DNA from: an uncultured Veillonella sp.
GTDB taxonomy: Bacteria; Bacillota; Negativicutes; Veillonellales; Veillonellaceae
NCBI GenBank assembly: GCA_900552445.1
Contig: URZS01000032.1
Coordinates: 1-8,479 of the forward strand
Length of the DNA: 8,479 bases
Direction: 5' to 3'
Made by a program: the position numbers and the translations under genes. Below the pieces are notes generated by a model, which saw only the letters and a list, made by a program, of their open reading frames with translations, ran no database searches and was not told where the DNA came from. This document shows positions 368-8,479 of this stretch, piece by piece (position 1 is the stretch's first letter; every line of letters starts with the position of its first letter).

Positions 368-1486
368 ATGAGAGTAGAGGACATGAAGGGTGGCTATACC
401 ACAGGTTCATGTGCTACGGCAGGTATGAAAGCTGGTTTATTGGCACTCTTAGATAAGAACATCGTGGACCAAGTGGTCATTGAAAATCCTCAAGGTCAGT
501 ATATTGAGGTGCCTATTAAAGCCGTAGAGGTTATATCCGATACTGAGGCTAAGGTGACCGTTATGAAAGACGGTGGCGACGATCCTGATGTAACCCATGG
601 CAATGATGTGGAAACGACGGTGACTCTTGATGATACTGGTGAACTACGATTCCGAGCAGGCTTTGGCGTTGGGACGGTAACTAAACCGGGCCTTGCGATG
701 CCGCCTGGAGAACCAGCTATCAATCCAGGGCCTCGTACGATGATGAACATCGTCTTTGAAGAGCATTGTGTACATGGTGAAGGTGTAACCGTAACAGTTA
801 GCGTACCAAATGGTATGATCTTAGCTAAGAAAACCTTAAATCATACCCTCGGTATCGAAGGTGGTATTTCCATTATCGGTACTACAGGTATCGTTAAGCC
901 TATGAGTGAAGAAGGGTTCAAAAACTCTTTAGTGCCTCAGCTAAGAGTTATGAAAGCTAATGGTTGTGAAACAGCTGTTCTCGTACCGGGCCGTATTGGT
1001 CAGGATCTAGCAGAGCAAGTACTGGGTATTCATAAGAATCAAATGGCAGAAACGAGTAATTTTATTGGCTTTATGCTAGAAAAGGCAGTTGAAATTGGCT
1101 TCAAGCGTATCTTGATTATCGGTCATATCGGTAAGTTAATAAAACTCGCTAATGGCAGTTTCCACACGCACAATCGCATGAGTGATGGCCGCATGGAAAG
1201 TATTGTGGCTTATGCCGCTTTAGAAGGGGCATCCCAAGCGGTGTGTGAAGAGTTGTTTAATTGCCAAACTACAGAGTCTACGTTCCCTATTTTGGAGCGC
1301 GAAGGACTGACTGGCGTTTACCAACGAGTAGTAGACCGCGCATCTCTTCGCAGTGAGCGATATATTGCTAACGAAGCAGAGGTGGGCATCATCATTACTA
1401 CCTTAAAAGGTGAGATTTTGGCTATGGATAAACGTGCAAAAGAGATAGGAGAGCTTGAACAATGGCACATACCTTGTATATCGTAG
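368..1486 (+). CDS. cbiD: CbiD, cobalt-precorrin-5B (C1)-methyltransferase
   Basis: CbiD transfers a methyl group from S-adenosylmethionine to C1 of cobalt-precorrin-5B, giving cobalt-precorrin-6A in the anaerobic cobalamin route. The 372-residue product matches the usual family length. Hallmarks in order are GYTTGSCATAG (residues 9-19), DGGDDPDVT (68-76), the glycine/proline-rich GVGTVTKPGLAMPPGEPAIN (100-119) followed by PGPR, GGISIIGTTGIVKPMS (165-180), and GHIGKLIKLANGSFHTHN (252-269). CbiD is unrelated in sequence to the tetrapyrrole methylase family used by the neighbouring CbiE, CbiF and CbiH. It is the first gene of the cbi operon here. Its last nine codons overlap the start of cbiE (25 nt counting both genes' bases), which suggests translational coupling. 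CbiD is specific to the cobalt-early pathway, so its presence points to anaerobic-type synthesis. Confidence 0.97.
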   Translation: MRVEDMKGGYTTGSCATAGMKAGLLALLDKNIVDQVVIENPQGQYIEVPIKAVEVISDTEAKVTVMKDGGDDPDVTHGNDVETTVTLDDTGELRFRAGFGVGTVTKPGLAMPPGEPAINPGPRTMMNIVFEEHCVHGEGVTVTVSVPNGMILAKKTLNHTLGIEGGISIIGTTGIVKPMSEEGFKNSLVPQLRVMKANGCETAVLVPGRIGQDLAEQVLGIHKNQMAETSNFIGFMLEKAVEIGFKRILIIGHIGKLIKLANGSFHTHNRMSDGRMESIVAYAALEGASQAVCEELFNCQTTESTFPILEREGLTGVYQRVVDRASLRSERYIANEAEVGIIITTLKGEILAMDKRAKEIGELEQWHIPCIS

Positions 1487-2088
1487 GCATTGGTCCAGGT
1501 AATCCTGATTATGTGGTACCTAGAGGCCTTAATTTAATTAAACATGCTACAGTATTGGTAGGTAGCGAACGGGCCCTAGAGGACTTTCAAGAACCTGGCC
1601 AAATTACATATCCTGTAACAGGTAAGCTCAGCTTATTGGCTGAGCAAATTGAGCGTGAGCTCAACGACCATGATGTGGTAGTTATGGTAAGCGGTGATAC
1701 AGGCTATTATAGCTTGTTGCCGTATTTGAAGAAGAAATTTACTGCTAATCCTATTGAGGTTGTGCCTGGCATTAGTTCTATGACCTTTGCCTTCGCTCGA
1801 CTCAATGAGGTATGGCATGATGCGGATTTAATGAGCTTTCACGGTCGCCAACCGGCACCGGAAAAACTCGTTTATGAAGCAGGTAAAAAGATGGGGTTCT
1901 TAACGGATCCTGAATATAATCCAGCGCATATTGCGCGTATTTTAATAGATGCAGGCTGGCCAAAAGAAACGAGAGCAGCAGCCCTTGAGCGCTTGAGCTA
2001 TGATGATGAAAAAATCGTAGACTCCACGTTAGAGGTATTAACTGAGCTTGAAGGCTTTGGTCATTCTGTAATGGTGGTACTAGGATGA
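1462..2088 (+). CDS. cbiE: CbiE, cobalt-precorrin-7 (C5)-methyltransferase
   Basis: CbiE methylates C5 of cobalt-precorrin-7 to give cobalt-precorrin-8. The 208-residue protein has the tetrapyrrole methylase fold: the N-terminal SAM-site motif GIGPGN (residues 9-14), MVSGDTGYYSLL (75-86), which contains the conserved SGD, VPGISS (101-106), and SFHGR (125-129). The start at 1462 is supported by AGGAGAG at 1447-1453 with an 8-nt spacer, and the motif sits at the expected distance from the N-terminus. The start lies inside the end of cbiD, in another frame. The stop overlaps the cbiT start as ATGA. CbiE and CbiT are separate proteins here; in many aerobic-pathway organisms the two activities are fused as CobL. 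The separate, adjacent arrangement is usual for anaerobic-pathway bacteria. Confidence 0.96.
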   Translation: MAHTLYIVGIGPGNPDYVVPRGLNLIKHATVLVGSERALEDFQEPGQITYPVTGKLSLLAEQIERELNDHDVVVMVSGDTGYYSLLPYLKKKFTANPIEVVPGISSMTFAFARLNEVWHDADLMSFHGRQPAPEKLVYEAGKKMGFLTDPEYNPAHIARILIDAGWPKETRAAALERLSYDDEKIVDSTLEVLTELEGFGHSVMVVLG

Positions 2089-2672
2089 GACATTTTTTCG
2101 GAATTCCTGATGAGGAATTTATCCGCGGCGACGTGCCGATGACGAAATGCGAGATTCGCAAAGCGGTTATGAACGAGGCGCGTATCGAAGAGAATAGCAT
2201 CGTTCTTGACGTAGGTGCTGGTACGGGCTCTATCTCTATTGAAGCAGCCTTGGCAGCTCCTAAAGGGCATGTATATGCGATTGAACGCTTTGATAAAGGC
2301 ATCGACCTTATCAATGAAAACATGAAGAAGTTCAATGTAAATAATATGACAGTCATAAAGTCTAAAGCTCCTGAAGGTATGGAAGAATTGCCTGACCTTG
2401 ATGCGGTTATTATCGGCGGTAGTGCTGGTGGTATGACAGGCATCATGGATGAAGCACAACGTCTTTTAAAAATTGGCGGTCGTTTAGTTGTAACTGCAGT
2501 AACGATGGAAACTGGTTATACAATCTTAAAAGAATTGAAAGGTCGTCCTTTCACCTATGAAGGGTACCAAATGTCCATCAGTCGTTACCGCAAGGCTGGT
2601 CCCTATCATTTGTTAGACCCATTGAGTCCAATTTTCATTGTATCTGCAACGCGTATCGCAGAAGGAGAGTAA
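2085..2672 (+). CDS. cbiT: CbiT, cobalt-precorrin-6B (C15)-methyltransferase (decarboxylating)
   Basis: CbiT methylates C15 and removes the carboxyl group of the C12 acetate side chain of cobalt-precorrin-6B, giving cobalt-precorrin-7. The 195-residue product is a class I Rossmann methyltransferase, unlike CbiE. The N-terminal GIPDEEF (residues 6-12) and PMTK (18-21) are typical of CbiT; motif I is LDVGAGTGSISIEAA (41-55), the acidic residue ending strand 2 is in YAIERF (64-69), and IIGGSAGG (109-116) lies near the active site in the family. The start is fixed by the ATGA overlap with cbiE. Only a weak GG-containing sequence precedes it, so translation is probably coupled to cbiE. The gene ends 1 nt before cbiF. 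Confidence 0.96.
   Translation: MRHFFGIPDEEFIRGDVPMTKCEIRKAVMNEARIEENSIVLDVGAGTGSISIEAALAAPKGHVYAIERFDKGIDLINENMKKFNVNNMTVIKSKAPEGMEELPDLDAVIIGGSAGGMTGIMDEAQRLLKIGGRLVVTAVTMETGYTILKELKGRPFTYEGYQMSISRYRKAGPYHLLDPLSPIFIVSATRIAEGE
2662..2667 (+). promoter_or_regulatory. Ribosome binding site that decides the cbiF start
   Basis: AAGGAG lies 6 nt before the ATG at 2674. It favours this start over an upstream in-frame ATG at 2638, which would lie inside cbiT and add 12 residues ahead of the conserved N-terminus. Confidence 0.8.
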
Positions 2673-2673
2673 T

Positions 2674-3435
2674 ATGGTTGACGTACATATCGTAGGCGCA
2701 GGCCCTGGGGATCCCGAGTTAATTACTCGTAAAGGGTATCGTTTAGTGCAAGAGGCAGACGTTGTTATCTACGCTGGCTCCTTGGTAAACCCTGCCATTT
2801 TAGAGGCTTGTAAACCAAGCTGTGAAATTCATAATAGTGCTACTATGAACCTTGATGAGGTGTTGGCTGTTATGAAAGCTTCTGTTGAGGCTGGTAAAAG
2901 CGTAGTTCGCCTTCACACAGGTGACCCTGCTATTTACGGTGCTATTCAAGAGCAAATGGATGCACTGGCTGGCATGGGTATTTCTTATGAAGTCGTGCCA
3001 GGTGTAAGTTCTTTCCTTGCTACAGCAGCGGCTTTGAAACAAGAATATACACTACCTAATGTATCTCAAACAGTTATCATTACGCGCATGGAAGGCCGTA
3101 CACCGATGCCTCCAAAGGAAAAATTGCGCATGTTAGCATCTCATGAAGCGACTATGTGTATTTTCCTTAGCGTTCAAATGTTAGATAAGGTTGTAGCTGA
3201 ACTCATCGAGGGCGGTTATGACAAAACGACTCCAGTGGCTATCGTGGTAAAAGCGTCTTGGCCAGACCAACGCATTATCCGTGGCACATTGGAAACCATT
3301 GCGGACATCGTAGCGAAAGAAGGCGTATTGCGCCAAGCTATGATCGTAGTAAGCCATGTATTAGATAGTGAATACGAACTATCTAAGCTTTACGACAAAG
3401 GCTTTGCTCACATGTACCGCAGTGCTAAGGACTAG
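2674..3435 (+). CDS. cbiF: CbiF, cobalt-precorrin-4 (C11)-methyltransferase
   Basis: CbiF methylates C11 of cobalt-precorrin-4 using SAM, giving cobalt-precorrin-5A. The 253-residue tetrapyrrole methylase shows nearly all CbiF/CobM hallmarks: VGAGPGDPELIT (residues 7-18), VIYAGSLVN (31-39), VRLHTGDPAIYGA (78-90), EVVPGVSSFLATAAAL (106-121) leading to KQEYTLP, and the ITRMEGRTPMP segment (136-146). The YAGSLVN and ITR(M)EGRTP motifs distinguish it from CbiE, CbiH and CbiL. The start at 2674 was chosen for its strong ribosome binding site and because it places the SAM motif seven residues in. It is 1 nt from cbiT upstream and 1 nt from cbiG downstream, so it is surely in the same transcript. 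No unusual or missing residues were seen. Confidence 0.97.
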   Translation: MVDVHIVGAGPGDPELITRKGYRLVQEADVVIYAGSLVNPAILEACKPSCEIHNSATMNLDEVLAVMKASVEAGKSVVRLHTGDPAIYGAIQEQMDALAGMGISYEVVPGVSSFLATAAALKQEYTLPNVSQTVIITRMEGRTPMPPKEKLRMLASHEATMCIFLSVQMLDKVVAELIEGGYDKTTPVAIVVKASWPDQRIIRGTLETIADIVAKEGVLRQAMIVVSHVLDSEYELSKLYDKGFAHMYRSAKD

Positions 3436-3436
3436 T

Positions 3437-4585
3437 ATGATGAAAGAACTAGAAACTGTTGCGCCTATGACGGGACGCAAGAAGAATAGAACTGCTATTC
3501 TTTCTGTGTCTGAACGAGGTGCAAAGCTAGGTCAACGCATCAAGTCTTTGGTGGCACCTCATGCGGATTGCTTTGAAAAAGAAAACCGTCCTTCTGGTGG
3601 AGAGGCTATTTACTTTGACTCTCTCAAAAACCATATTGGACAGATTTTCAAGGATTACGACCAAGTGTTATGTATTATGGCACTCGGTATCGTAGTGCGC
3701 ATGATTGCACCATATATTGAGCATAAATCCAAGGATCCTGCTGTAGTCGTTATGGACGAAGTAGGACACCATGTGATTAGCTTGTTATCTGGTCACCTTG
3801 GGGGCGCCAACGAATGGACGCAGTCCATTTCGCTGGCCATCGATGCGGACCCTGTCATTACGACTGCTACGGATGTAAACGGATTGCCAGCGCCTGACGT
3901 GTTGGCGCGCCACGAGCATCTGCTAGTAGATGATTTTCAAACCTTGATCAATGTGAACTCTGCCATTGTTGGGGGAGAACGCGTTGATTATTATATCGAT
4001 GCAAGCTTAGAAAATGCTGAGCATTTAGCGGAAGTTACAAAAGCTCATATTGGTGAACATGGCATGGTTCACGTCGTTTCTTTGGATCAACTAGAGTCTA
4101 TGCCATGTAAAAATGAAAGCTCTGAAGAGGGTACTTCTCGGGTGGTCATTACGGACAAAGGAATAACCGAGTATGGTCATCAATTGATTTTGCGCCCTCG
4201 GACCTATACGATGGGCATTGGCTGTCGTCGAGACACGCCGAAGGAATTAATTCTCGATGCCATACAACAGTCGCTAGCAGCGCATAAGCTTTCACCAAAG
4301 AGCCTTGTAACGGCAGCATCGGTCATCGTTAAACAAGACGAAGTAGGCCTCTTAGAGGCTATGCAAATTATGGGGTGGCCTATCGTGTTCTATACACAGG
4401 ACGAGATGGCACCACTCATTGAAGAACAAGAATTAAAAGAATCTAATTTTGTAAAAGGAACTATAGGAGTAGGAAACGTATGCGAGACAACGGCATTACT
4501 AGCGGCCAAGAGCCGAACATTAATACAGCACAAAACAATTTATCCCAAAACAACGGTAGCCATTGCACAGGTAACATCAAAGTAA
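3437..4585 (+). CDS. cbiG: CbiG, cobalt-precorrin-5A hydrolase
   Basis: CbiG opens the delta-lactone ring of cobalt-precorrin-5A and releases the two-carbon C20 fragment as acetaldehyde, giving cobalt-precorrin-5B. The 382-residue protein has the three-part CbiG layout: an N-terminal domain with IMALGIVVRMIAPYIEHKSK DP-type core (residues 80-101) and LLSGHLGGAN (116-125); a variable middle with a likely linker around 220-235; and a C-terminal domain with MGIGCRRDTP (259-268) and GTIGVGNVCETTALLAA (341-357). AAGGA at 3427-3431 precedes two adjacent ATG codons: 3437 (5-nt spacer) and 3440 (8-nt spacer). Either could be used, changing the protein by one residue. A longer frame from 3368 lies inside cbiF and is unlikely. 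The 3' end overlaps cbiH by 106 nt. CbiG has no counterpart of the same kind in the aerobic route, where CobG/CobF chemistry is used. Confidence 0.96.
   Translation: MMKELETVAPMTGRKKNRTAILSVSERGAKLGQRIKSLVAPHADCFEKENRPSGGEAIYFDSLKNHIGQIFKDYDQVLCIMALGIVVRMIAPYIEHKSKDPAVVVMDEVGHHVISLLSGHLGGANEWTQSISLAIDADPVITTATDVNGLPAPDVLARHEHLLVDDFQTLINVNSAIVGGERVDYYIDASLENAEHLAEVTKAHIGEHGMVHVVSLDQLESMPCKNESSEEGTSRVVITDKGITEYGHQLILRPRTYTMGIGCRRDTPKELILDAIQQSLAAHKLSPKSLVTAASVIVKQDEVGLLEAMQIMGWPIVFYTQDEMAPLIEEQELKESNFVKGTIGVGNVCETTALLAAKSRTLIQHKTIYPKTTVAIAQVTSK
4465..4474 (+). promoter_or_regulatory. Ribosome binding site of cbiH inside cbiG
   Basis: AGGAG (4465-4469, 10 nt from the ATG) and AGGA (4471-4474, 5 nt from the ATG) lie in tandem before the ATG at 4480. 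They support translation of cbiH from within the cbiG coding sequence and decide the long overlap. Confidence 0.65.
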
Positions 4586-5304
4586 TCGGCATCGGCCCTG
4601 GCGATGAAGAGTTTATGACGCCGCAAGCGCGCGAAGCTATCTTAGCGGCTGACCGCGTGGTTGGTTATTTGACATACCTCGACTTGATTAAAGACCTTAT
4701 CGAAGGCAAAGAAACTGTAGGTACTGCAATGATGCAAGAAGTAGATCGTTGCCAACAAGCCGTTGATTTAGCAGTAGAAGGACATCAAGTAGTTGTAGTA
4801 TCCTCTGGTGACTCTGGCGTATACGGCATGGCAGGCCTCGTATTGGAACTTGCTAACAAAGTACCAGCAGAAAAACGCCCTTCCGTAGATATCGTGCCAG
4901 GCCTTAGTGCTGTAAACGTAGCAGCATCTGTATTGGGTGCACCTTTGATGCATGACTTTGCAGTAATTTCCTTGAGCGACTTGATGACTCCATGGGATCT
5001 TATTAAAAAACGTGCTGACCTTTGTGCACAAGGCGATATGGTTATTTCCTTGTACAATCCACGCAGTAAAAAACGCGTTACTCACTTAGATGAAGTTCGT
5101 GAAATCGTTCTTAAATACCGTGACCCTAAAACACCTGTAGGCATCGTGCAAAAAGCAGGTCGTCCAGGTCAACAAATGGTAATTTCCGACCTTGAAAACT
5201 TCACAAAAGAAGAAGTAGATATGCAAACACTTGTTATCATCGGTAACAGCCAAACTTATGTTGAAAATGGTCGCATGATTACACCTCGAGGCTACAAATT
5301 ATGA
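4480..5304 (+). CDS. cbiH: CbiH, cobalt-factor III (C17)-methyltransferase, ring contraction
   Basis: CbiH methylates C17 and contracts the macrocycle, converting cobalt-factor III to cobalt-precorrin-4. The 274-residue product contains a standard CbiH/CobJ core: GIGPGDEEFMTPQA (residues 37-50), DRVVGYLTYL (58-67), VVVVSSGDSGVYGMAG (104-119), DIVPGLSAVNVAASVLGAPL (137-156), HDFAVISLSDLMTPW (158-172) and YNPRSKKR near 190. Before the core there is a polar stretch of about 33 residues rich in Asn, Gln, Ser and Thr. It is encoded almost exactly by the 106 nt shared with the end of cbiG in another frame. No ATG or other obvious start lies between 4480 and the core, and tandem ribosome binding sites precede 4480, so this start is preferred. 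The extension looks like a by-product of the overlap and not a domain. No C-terminal Fe-S extension like that of CbiH60 proteins is present. The stop overlaps cbiJ as ATGA. Confidence 0.95.
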   Translation: MRDNGITSGQEPNINTAQNNLSQNNGSHCTGNIKVIGIGPGDEEFMTPQAREAILAADRVVGYLTYLDLIKDLIEGKETVGTAMMQEVDRCQQAVDLAVEGHQVVVVSSGDSGVYGMAGLVLELANKVPAEKRPSVDIVPGLSAVNVAASVLGAPLMHDFAVISLSDLMTPWDLIKKRADLCAQGDMVISLYNPRSKKRVTHLDEVREIVLKYRDPKTPVGIVQKAGRPGQQMVISDLENFTKEEVDMQTLVIIGNSQTYVENGRMITPRGYKL

Positions 5305-6089
5305 TTTGGGTTATTGCCGGTACCTTGGATGGTCGCACCTTAGCGGTAGATATCCAAGAGCGGACAGGTGAAGATGTGCTTGTTACGGTAGTTAGCCAAT
5401 ATGGAGCAGAGCTTGCTGCCCATAAAGGTATTACTGTACATACGGGCCGTCTTGACCAAGCGGCTATGCAAAACTTGATTAAAGAGCACAATGTGCGCCT
5501 TTTAATCGATGCAAGCCATCCGTATGCAGCAGTTGTTACAGCAACTGCTCAAGATGCAGCAAAGGCAGTAGGTATTCCTTTCGTTCGTTTTGAACGTAAA
5601 GAGGTGCCATTGCCAGAATATGATAAATTACATATCGTAGTGGATGAAGTAGAAGCAGCGAATTTGGCAGGCAAGTTAGCTAAAGAAAATAATGGTCATG
5701 TGTATTTGACTACTGGTAGTAAAACAATGCACATCTTTGCTAAATCTGAAGCCTTGCAAGATTGTGAAGTATGGACACGCATTTTGCCTACCGCAGAGGT
5801 GTTACAGATGATGGAAGACCTCAATGTGAGTCCTAAACGCATCGTTGCTGTACAAGGTCCATTTTCTTACGATATGAACCGCATCATGTTCCACGATACA
5901 AAGGCTAGCGTGGTGGTTATGAAAAACTCTGGCCTAGTAGGTGGTGCTGATACAAAGTTACAAGCCGCTATGGATCTTGGTATCCATGTTATTGTTATCG
6001 ATAGACCTCGTGTTAAACTTGAATGCCACGTGGTATCAACAAATGATGAATTTTTCAAATTATGGGAGGACACTAATGGATTACGTTAA
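5301..6089 (+). CDS. cbiJ: CbiJ, cobalt-precorrin-6A reductase
   Basis: CbiJ reduces one double bond of the ring of cobalt-precorrin-6A with a nicotinamide cofactor, giving cobalt-precorrin-6B; it is the CobK counterpart of the cobalt-early route. The 262-residue protein shows the family pattern: N-terminal IWVIAGTLDGR (residues 2-12), LIDASHPYAA (68-77), VYLTTGSK (134-141), RIVAVQGPFS (180-189) and KNSGLVGGADTKLQAA (208-223). No membrane segment or signal peptide is seen, so it should be cytosolic. The start at 5301 overlaps the cbiH stop in an ATGA, with GAGG at 5288-5291 as ribosome binding site, 9 nt upstream. The 3' end overlaps cbiC by 14 nt. The third intermediate of the reaction order (after CbiD, before CbiT) is thus handled by a gene placed late in the operon: gene order does not follow reaction order. 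Confidence 0.95.
   Translation: MIWVIAGTLDGRTLAVDIQERTGEDVLVTVVSQYGAELAAHKGITVHTGRLDQAAMQNLIKEHNVRLLIDASHPYAAVVTATAQDAAKAVGIPFVRFERKEVPLPEYDKLHIVVDEVEAANLAGKLAKENNGHVYLTTGSKTMHIFAKSEALQDCEVWTRILPTAEVLQMMEDLNVSPKRIVAVQGPFSYDMNRIMFHDTKASVVVMKNSGLVGGADTKLQAAMDLGIHVIVIDRPRVKLECHVVSTNDEFFKLWEDTNGLR
6064..6070 (+). promoter_or_regulatory. Ribosome binding site that decides the cbiC start
   Basis: GGGAGGA lies 5 nt before the ATG at 6076. It favours this start over an in-frame ATG at 5941 within cbiJ, which would add 45 residues with no resemblance to the family. Confidence 0.8.
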
Positions 6090-6741
6090 AAATCCTAAAG
6101 AGATTGAAGATAAAAGTATGCAAATCATTTACGATTATGTAAAAGATTTGGGTTTAACAGATGATGAAGTACGCGTAGTATCTCGTACTGTACATGCTTC
6201 TGGTGACGTTGAATACGCTCAACTCGTAAGAATGAGCCCTGGTGCTGTTCAAAAAGGTATCGAAGCATTGGAAAATGGTGCTAATATTTACACTGACGTA
6301 GAAATGGTTCGCACAGGTATTTCCAAACCAGCTCTTAAAATTCGCGGTAATGAAGTACACTGCTTGATCAAAGACGAAAACGTAGCTAAAATGGCTAAAG
6401 AATTGGGTGTAACTCGTTCTATCGCAGCTATGCGTACATTTGGCAAACAATTAGAAGGCCAAATCGTAGCTATTGGTAATGCGCCTACTGCATTGTACGA
6501 AGTATTACGCTTAGCTCTTGAAGAAGGCATTAAACCAGCTCTTATCATTGGTATCCCTGTAGGCTTCGTAGGTGCTGCAGAATCCAAAGATTATTTGATG
6601 GAAGTATCCCCAGTTCCTTACATCACTGTAAAAGGTAACAAAGGTGGTAGCCCAATCGCTGCTTCCGTATGTAATGCATTGCTTTACACAGACGTAAAAC
6701 GCAATGACATGCTCTTCGTAGAAGGCAAAGAATCTAAATAA
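6076..6741 (+). CDS. cbiC: CbiC, cobalt-precorrin-8 methylmutase
   Basis: CbiC moves the methyl group from C11 to C12 of cobalt-precorrin-8, giving cobyrinic acid (cobalt form), the end of the ring-modification stage. The 221-residue product fits the family length. The catalytic histidine, known as the proton donor in CobH, is expected at H40 within SRTVHASGDVEYA (residues 36-48). Other conserved parts are NGANIYTDVEMVRTGI (67-82), VAIGNAPTAL (131-140), GIPVGFVGAAESK (159-171) and GNKGGSPIAASVCNALL (187-203). The start at 6076 lies inside the last codons of cbiJ, giving a 14-nt overlap. It is the last gene of the operon and is followed within 4 nt by a terminator stem. All 18 lysines use AAA, a stronger bias than in cbiG, so its codon use looks more like that of a well-expressed gene. 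Confidence 0.97.
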   Translation: MDYVKNPKEIEDKSMQIIYDYVKDLGLTDDEVRVVSRTVHASGDVEYAQLVRMSPGAVQKGIEALENGANIYTDVEMVRTGISKPALKIRGNEVHCLIKDENVAKMAKELGVTRSIAAMRTFGKQLEGQIVAIGNAPTALYEVLRLALEEGIKPALIIGIPVGFVGAAESKDYLMEVSPVPYITVKGNKGGSPIAASVCNALLYTDVKRNDMLFVEGKESK

Positions 6742-6744
6742 TAC

Positions 6745-6786
6745 AAAACCCGAATCGTGTTTTAGTAGTTTTGCGATTCGGGTTTT
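6745..6786 (+). terminator. Intrinsic terminator after cbiC
   Basis: AAAACCCGAATCG at 6745-6757 is the exact reverse complement of CGATTCGGGTTTT at 6774-6786. The GC-containing 9-bp core stem (6749-6757 with 6774-6782) is followed by TTTT, and the loop is 16 nt. The A-tract on the left arm would let it work in both directions. It closes the cbi operon, yet lies only 28 nt before the permease start codon. Confidence 0.88.
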
Positions 6787-6800
6787 ACTGTATATGTTTT

Positions 6801-6814: not shown

Positions 6815-7810
6815 ATGGCATCTATAAATGAACGAAAAGCCTTTCGTTTATCAGTGATTTTTATCTTACTTATAGCCGTTATAGCCTGTATGATTATTTC
6901 TCTTATCTGGGGTTCCACACCGGTATCACTCACCGATATTTGGCGTACCCTTTGGTCCGATGAGTTAACAGATACGGCTTCACAGATTATTTGGAATATT
7001 CGTTTACCTCGTAATATTGTGGCCGCCTTGGTAGGGGCTTGTCTCGCTGTATCTGGTGCTATTTTACAAGCGGTTATGAAAAACCCACTGGCGGATCCAC
7101 AGATTGTAGGGGTATCCTCTGGTGCAGGCCTTGCCGGTGTTATAGTGCTCATTTTGTTCCCTGGTTACGATTATATTGTTCCTTTAGTGGCCTTCTTAGG
7201 TGCCATGGGGGCAGCCCTTATGGTGTATGCACTGGCCTGGAAAAATGGGGTAAGACCAAGCCGCATCATCTTAGCCGGTGTGGCCGTATCAGCCTTTTTA
7301 GGGTCTGGTATTTCGGCGCTTCTCGTGTTCTACGGTGACCGCGTACAAGGTGCGTTGCTATGGATGGTAGGGGGCTTGTCGGCTCGTAGCTGGCCTCAAG
7401 TTGAGGTACTATTCCCGTATGCTATGATTGGACTCTTCCTAGCTTGCTTAGGGGCAAAACGACTTACCATTTTAAGTCTTGGTGATGAGACGGCTAAAGG
7501 TCTTGGTCTTAAGGTTGAACAAACGCGCTTTATGATGACTGCTGTAGCTGCCCTTTTGGCGGCTGGTGCCGTAAGTATTGCAGGCCTCATCGGCTTTGTC
7601 GGCCTTGTCATTCCTCATATGCTACGCCTCATTATCGGTAATGACTATGCCTATCTATTGCCAGGGTCTGCACTATTAGGTGCCTTTGTTCTCGTTGTGA
7701 GCGACACGGTAGGGCGCGTTCTCATGAGTCCTATTGAAATTCCTGTAGGCATTATCATGGCCTTCTTTGGGGCACCGTTCTTCTTGTATCTATTAAGGAG
7801 GGATAGCTGA
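6815..7810 (+). CDS. FecCD-family ABC importer permease (BtuC-like; corrinoid, siderophore or heme uptake)
   Basis: This is an inner-membrane permease of a type II ABC importer that takes up a metal chelate such as a siderophore, heme or a corrinoid. At 331 residues it has the usual length, and its hydrophobic pattern fits about ten membrane segments, the first at residues 13-33. Family features are IRLPRNIVAALVGACLAVSG (62-81), QAVMKNPLADPQIVGVSSGAG (85-105), the cytoplasmic coupling segment GFVGLVIPHMLRLIIGND (260-277), which docks on the ATPase, and the C-terminal GAPFFLYLLRR (319-329). The next gene, an ABC ATPase, starts in a TGATG overlap, so the two should form one transporter. No substrate-binding protein gene is visible; it would have to lie past the contig end or elsewhere. 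Proximity to the cbi operon makes a cobalt or corrinoid substrate attractive, but FecCD sequences do not reveal the substrate by eye, so no symbol is given. Confidence 0.93.
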   Translation: MASINERKAFRLSVIFILLIAVIACMIISLIWGSTPVSLTDIWRTLWSDELTDTASQIIWNIRLPRNIVAALVGACLAVSGAILQAVMKNPLADPQIVGVSSGAGLAGVIVLILFPGYDYIVPLVAFLGAMGAALMVYALAWKNGVRPSRIILAGVAVSAFLGSGISALLVFYGDRVQGALLWMVGGLSARSWPQVEVLFPYAMIGLFLACLGAKRLTILSLGDETAKGLGLKVEQTRFMMTAVAALLAAGAVSIAGLIGFVGLVIPHMLRLIIGNDYAYLLPGSALLGAFVLVVSDTVGRVLMSPIEIPVGIIMAFFGAPFFLYLLRRDS

Positions 7811-8430
7811 TGAATACAACTAATACTGCTATTGCTGTAAAACAGCTATCCGTTACCCTTGGGAATCGACATATTTTGCATGATATTTCTTTATCGATTC
7901 CGATGGGGAAAATTACGACCTTAATAGGCCCTAATGGTTGTGGTAAAAGTACGCTTTTACGATCTATGATTGGCTATATTTCTAGTCCTAGAGAGTGTGT
8001 AACTATCTTTGATAAGCCTTTATCCTCTTATTCGCAGAATAAGTTAGCTCGTCAAATGGCATTCTTACCACAAGTGCCTAATATGCCAAAGGATATGACC
8101 GTAGAGGAACTGGTGTACTGTGGTCGTTATCCGTACCAAAATTGGTGGAAGAATACGGCAAAAGAGGATCGAGAAATCGTAGACAATGCACTGTCTATTA
8201 CGAAAACAGACCATCTTCGCCATCAACTGATTCCATCTCTATCTGGCGGTGAGCGCCAACGGGTTTGGATTGCCATGGCCTTAGCACAAGAACCAAAACT
8301 ATTAGTTCTAGATGAGCCAACAACGTATTTAGATATCAATCACCAACTCGAAATTATGGAGCTTTTAAAACGGCTCAATAAAGAGCAATGTCTAACAGTT
8401 CTCATGGTACTACACGATTTAACGCAAGCA
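7810..8430 (+). CDS. ABC importer ATPase of the FecE/BtuD type, 3' end missing
   Basis: This is the ATPase that would power the permease encoded just upstream. AAGGAGGG at 7795-7802 precedes the ATG at 7810 by 7 nt. Visible motifs are Walker A GPNGCGKST (residues 40-48), the Q-loop LPQ (Q88), the signature LSGGERQR (144-151), Walker B LLVLDEP (164-170) with catalytic E169, the D-loop TTYLDI (171-176) and the H-loop histidine H202 in MVLHDLTQA. YCGRYPYQ (103-110) is typical of the FecE/BtuD/FhuC group. Family members are about 250-270 residues; here genomic sequence supports only about 207. The frame continues as DRKSVV and a TAG at 8449-8451, but those codons come from sequencing adapter and are not real. 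The end given is therefore the edge of genomic sequence and not a stop codon. A normal gene would continue after LTQA, typically with ARY.D. Confidence 0.93.
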
Positions 8431-8479
8431 GATCGGAAGAGCGTCGTGTAGGGAAAGAGTGTAGATCTCGGTGGTCGCC
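8430..8479. other. Illumina TruSeq adapter sequence (assembly contaminant)
   Basis: The last 50 bases begin with AGATCGGAAGAGC, the common start of the Illumina TruSeq adapters, and continue with GTCGTGTAGGGAAAGAGTGT and then AGATCTCGGTGGTCGCC. From memory this matches the reverse complement of the TruSeq universal adapter without a mismatch, stopping a few bases short of its end. The A at 8430 may be genomic or the A-tail added in library preparation. The preceding ATPase frame is conserved up to this junction and loses all family resemblance after it. This stretch should be removed from any annotation. Confidence 0.97.

Follow-up and report, generated by a model that had tools for sequence, protein, structure and literature searches.

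Tools that detect adapter and vector contamination in public assemblies include, among others, FCS-adaptor. According to PMC7218494, NCBI uses VecScreen against adapter sequence and yet contamination persists, and PMC9765019 describes adapters in viral references that were detected with UniVec. Adapter contamination itself is well known and the locus described here is an ordinary, non-biological artefact. As in the contaminated public assemblies treated in PMC7218494, a synthetic sequencing oligonucleotide sits on a contig end. The contamination is of the same kind, but the TruSeq oligonucleotide is notable in that it supplies a stop in every forward frame once As follow it, which conceals the truncation. 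A second system for comparison is that of spurious proteins from contaminated contigs, where contaminant DNA is annotated automatically and enters protein databases (PMC7218494). There the whole protein is foreign, whereas in our case a genuine protein is shortened and carries a short synthetic tail, and a second difference from that account is that we also find short inserts framed by adapter on both sides, in 104 of 120 listed proteins. Because the adapter brings its own stops, the usual hint that the contig end has interrupted a gene disappears, and the fusion passes for a complete protein. What this analysis adds is that all-frame stops take away the customary warning of a truncated gene and that translated adapter occurs in public protein sets across the full depth of the searches; only the scale goes beyond routine.

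The window, by which we mean the whole stretch of 8,479 nucleotides that was analysed and which probably comes from a Veillonella, has the following features at its 3' end.

7810 to 8430, + strand: genuine portion of a predicted FhuC/FecE/BtuD-like ABC transporter ATPase, residues 1-207, 3'-truncated (97% identity to relatives; full PF00005)
8430 to 8479, + strand: TruSeq P5 adapter in its single-index form, reverse-complemented, first 50 of 58 bases (exact match at 50/50; 0/200 shuffles)
8431 to 8451, + strand: false C-terminus DRKSVV and false TAG (8449-8451) derived from the adapter (ORF list; adapter frame; 0/120 relatives agreeing at residues 208-210, 212 and 213)

The initial annotation had called the last 50 bases Illumina adapter, and this was borne out because positions 8430 to 8479 coincide with the reverse-complemented adapter at 50 of 50 bases, with no mismatches, and a match with up to three mismatches was found in none of 200 shuffled windows. 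The expected random count of a 50-base match is about 1e-26 when uniform base composition is assumed. The matching oligonucleotide is the Illumina TruSeq universal (P5) adapter, which has 58 bases in full; the first 50 of the 58 bases are present at 8430-8479. Since GTGT adjoins AGATCTCGG directly with no index in between, and since a layout without the i5 index is that of the single-index TruSeq P5 adapter, the single-index form is indicated. The copy faces outward on the + strand and occupies the extreme 3' end of the window (8430-8479 of 8479), which is probably the contig end as well. When words of 9 to 12 bases from the adapter are looked for upstream of 8420, a lone 9-base match at 7283 is all that occurs, and thus the 5' end of the window is clean of adapter. 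The segment 8430-8479 is an artefact and non-genomic, except that its first one or two bases may be genome too. We regard it as virtually certain that this segment is adapter, most likely left at the contig end by read-through of a short fragment, and that its TAG closes the ATPase after 207 of 262 residues.

The ORF that runs into the adapter was found mechanically and not by a gene-calling program; it extends from 7810 to 8451 on the + strand, encodes 213 residues, and ends in DRKSVV with a TAG stop at 8449-8451. Translation shows that DRKSVV followed by TAG is the reading of the adapter's second frame. If the tail were genuine genome the ATPase would be naturally shortened to 213 residues, and it is true that the ORF is intact, in frame, and has a stop, and that the ABC_tran domain is complete even without the lost residues. 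We consider this explanation exceedingly improbable because it has to account for an exact 50-base match to a synthetic oligonucleotide, with the chance of about 1e-26 given above, and because of the length of the relatives of this protein. A protein search gave 7,992 relatives among at least 7,993 scored candidates and the best 120 were compared. All 120 (the best of at least 7,992) are proteins of 262 amino acids; the mean identity to these 120 over residues 1-206 is 97%, and the alanine at residue 207 is conserved in 118 of them. Homology to all 120 listed relatives then breaks off abruptly at residue 208, where the relatives have Val (114/120) or Ile (6/120), and not one of the 120 agrees at residues 208, 209, 210, 212, and 213. 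Ser211 is matched in 117 of the 120, most likely by chance. Compared with the 262-residue relatives, the window ATPase is missing residues 208-262, that is, 55 residues. That the DRKSVV end and the TAG at 8449-8451 are made by adapter, as had been claimed from the sequence, is confirmed by the second frame of the adapter and by the complete disagreement at residues 208-210, 212, and 213, and the accompanying claim that the gene is truncated at the assembly end is upheld by the 262-residue length of all listed relatives. An alignment with full-length homologues had been suggested as a check, and it shows agreement up to residue 207, after which it is lost.

Where exactly the genome ends can be placed within narrow limits. 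A8430 can be read either as the last position of the Ala207 codon or as the A-tail added to a ligated fragment; G8431 suits the adapter but would equally well open the GTN codon for the Val expected at residue 208. Since these two bases fit both genome and adapter, the genome-derived end would lie within 8429-8431, and judging from the bases themselves the junction would be ambiguous by at most two bases. A protein scan of viral contigs for a DNA copy of a relative of P0001, an intact relative of the ATPase, found none and, therefore, the junction was placed by the protein relatives. For the contig of the window, we recommend removing 8430-8479 and labelling the ATPase gene as 3'-incomplete.

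The same adapter was searched for in two collections, namely, bacterial and archaeal genomes and viral contigs, using its first 33 bases as an exact pattern, so that shorter tails escape; at least 120 stretches came from each collection and the counts are samples and lower bounds, not rates. The adapter faced outward and lay within 250 bases of a stretch end in 122 of 123 genome matches and in 118 of 122 viral-contig matches (at least 120 stretches in each case), against about 6% and about 4%, respectively, if position and direction were random. Of the 240 stretches, 72 cover only part of a contig, and 71 of these 72 have the adapter where the contig itself ends; in the remaining one, L212, it is internal. 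Altogether five matches, L113, L164, L169, L212, and L232, are off the contig-end rule. When a read passes the end of its fragment a run of As is expected, and of the 24 printed tails that exceed 58 bases, 23 continue into such a run. The base preceding the adapter was G in 37, C in 30, T in 29, and A in 26 cases in the genomes, and T in 35, G in 34, C in 31, and A in 18 cases in the viral contigs; a strong site preference before the adapter is absent. The outward contig-end pattern, the runs of As, and the lack of a strong site preference are as expected if short fragments were read through and left untrimmed. The carriers of the contig-end adapter are unrelated organisms and this is a further argument against a naturally shortened ATPase.

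Tail lengths are mostly 33 to about 70 bases and the 50 bases in the window are inside this spread. It could be argued that the adapter is real but that its 50-base length reads out the k-mer size of the assembler (k = 51), the contig stopping at the first k-mer that is all adapter. Narrow clusters of tail length, such as 44-48 bases in 49 of 123 genome matches, and groups such as CANDMD would fit this, but tails differ inside single assemblies, from 34 to 68 bases in one and from 42 to 73 bases in another, and a tail of exactly 50 bases was seen in only 1 of 123 genome and 3 of 122 viral matches. We therefore think this explanation unlikely; the variation of lengths within assemblies leaves it unsupported.

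Under the preferred reading, read-through of a short fragment, a library fragment shorter than the read length would have ended at about 8429, and the sequencer, likely in read 2 judging by the type of adapter, would have run through the A-tail into the adapter. The reads would then have been left untrimmed and the assembler would have extended the contig with the adapter. The last step is seen directly, in that the ORF finder takes in six residues encoded by adapter, meets a stop, and reports the ORF of 213 residues as complete. Untrimmed contig ends would tend to give falsely complete chimeric proteins in this way.

Finished sequences were also searched. None of 20,395 records of E. coli complete genomes matched, in a search where matches of about 29 bases could miss the E-value limit; among plasmids 1 of 72,556 records had a match, of 29 bases, and among phages 7 of 50,697 records matched, one of them across the full 50 bases. 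In the collections searched, drafts and metagenomes account for most of the problem and finished records are nearly clean by comparison. The adapter is internal in three finished phage records, and these copies together with the matches that are off the contig-end rule show that adapter can also sit inside assemblies.

Translation of the adapter followed by As meets a stop whichever of the three forward frames is read, the peptides before the stops ending in RSEERRVGKECRSRWSPYH, DRKSVV, and IGRASCRERV, and thus genes that enter the adapter would look complete. Read inward from a contig start, the adapter supplies an ATG and the peptide MIRRPPRSTLFPYTTLFRS (also by translation). ORFs of at least 100 codons entered the adapter in 94 of 240 outward tails (51/122 genome and 43/118 viral), these ORFs being found mechanically as the longest of three frames with 5' ends that may be open. 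Of the 94, 68 have their stop inside the tail and 26 are open to the contig end, and the DRKSVV frame is used by 33. DRKSVV is too short for a protein search and was therefore counted through these ORFs of the fetched contigs and through one annotated example. This example is XIJ71931.1, annotated as 'endonuclease' of Escherichia phage HMD-P3 (PQ462667.1, GenBank), which ends in DRKSVV and a stop at an internal copy of the adapter.

Two further adapter peptides were searched in a protein catalogue of 5.77 billion sequences, with at least 8,000 candidates scored for each and the best 120 inspected. With the frame-0 peptide, 7,998 of at least 8,000 scored candidates had an E value of 1 or less; in the best 120 the exact 19 residues were present in every one, in 120 different upstream contexts, and they were C-terminal in 118. 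With the mirror peptide MIRRPPRSTLFPYTTLFRS, 7,994 of at least 8,000 scored candidates were found, and in the best 120 all 19 residues were present in 115 and the last 17 in 117, 92 of the latter at the start of the protein. The mirror artefact yields false gene starts. Adapter translations are on both sides in 104 of the 120 best MIRRPPRSTLFPYTTLFRS matches (P0241-P0360), which also have a 3'-adapter-like tail, scored by the tail strings of the second adapter. Proteins with both tails look like single untrimmed library fragments translated from adapter to adapter. The initial annotation had warned that proteins ending in this way could enter databases, and XIJ71931.1 with its DRKSVV end and the 120 of 120 listed proteins with adapter in another frame show that they have done so.

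We propose, tentatively and with slightly less than even confidence, that the adapter works in one direction as a cassette of stops for all frames and in the other as a start cassette, that it has seeded public protein catalogues with a very large and largely unfiltered class of falsely complete chimeric or adapter-framed proteins, well beyond the at least 8,000 candidates scored per search, and that this class makes up part of what is counted as novel small or orphan proteins. In the 5.39 million papers searched, nine adapter-derived peptide strings had no occurrence, and translated adapter tails were not the subject of any title or abstract opening among those listed. A Pfam scan of three adapter peptides gave no model at an E value of 1 or less, with short X-padded queries of limited power, and so Pfam is not expected to flag such tails. 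A PHROGs family made by the adapter was also considered; there was one weak match (E 0.14), taken as chance. The tails DRKSVV, IGRASCRERV, and RSEERRVGKECRSRWSPYH together with the false start MIRRPPRSTLFPYTTLFRS could serve as an easy screen when protein catalogues are compiled, orphan genes are counted, or small proteins are surveyed.

Some details of the phage records are as follows. In the 'complete' genome of HMD-P3 (PQ462667.1, 617-1222 and 1254-1454) the internal adapter divides the annotated endonuclease in two, and residues just upstream of the adapter are repeated just downstream, as if the flanks overlap. Phage phiFenriz (KT254133.1, 1201-1250) has 50 adapter bases internally, between annotated genes, and the match ends at the 50th adapter base, the same as in the window. 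In MW202825.1 the adapter translation LSLHDALPIS forms the end of an annotated hypothetical protein (1193-1456, - strand); this record already bears the mark UNVERIFIED_CONTAM.

With respect to its family, the window ATPase resembles the FhuC/FecE/BtuD-like importer ATPases in having the full ABC_tran domain (PF00005, 109.5 bits against a cut-off of 25, profile 1-137 of 137), and its intact relative P0001 aligns to FhuC, the closest solved structure (7lb8, residues 2-242, E 4.7e-58); it differs from them in that the window copy is without residues 208-262. The best NCBIfam model is FecE, with 238 bits for the window ATPase and 280 bits for P0001 against a cut-off of 375. Among the best 25 of 192 and of 191 families, respectively, neither protein reached a substrate-specific NCBIfam cut-off. 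The adjoining permease gene at 6815-7810 has BtuC as its best model (280 bits against a cut-off of 461), and upstream of it is the following run.

368 to 6741, all genes in one direction: anaerobic-type cobalamin genes for CbiD, CbiE, CbiT, CbiF, CbiG, CbiH, precorrin-6A reductase, and CbiC (NCBIfam)

Because of the BtuC-like permease and these cobalamin genes, the system is likely a vitamin B12 or siderophore importer, as far as similarity and gene order can predict it. CbiG and CbiC are under their NCBIfam cut-offs among the models shown. At the other end of the window, 1-296 is a YajQ-family gene cut at the window start (profile 70-163 of 164, below cut-off); genes are thus interrupted at both window ends, and adapter is absent at the start. 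The last 106 bases of the cbiG-like ORF (4480-4585) also belong to the cbiH-like ORF, in which about 32 residues precede the family match and whose start may have been called too far upstream. Between cbiC and the permease gene, at 6738-6795, there is a strong hairpin (-21.7 kcal/mol, z -6.2) followed by T-rich sequence, which a simple terminator scan missed because its loop of 12 is above the limit of the scan, and which is likely a terminator.
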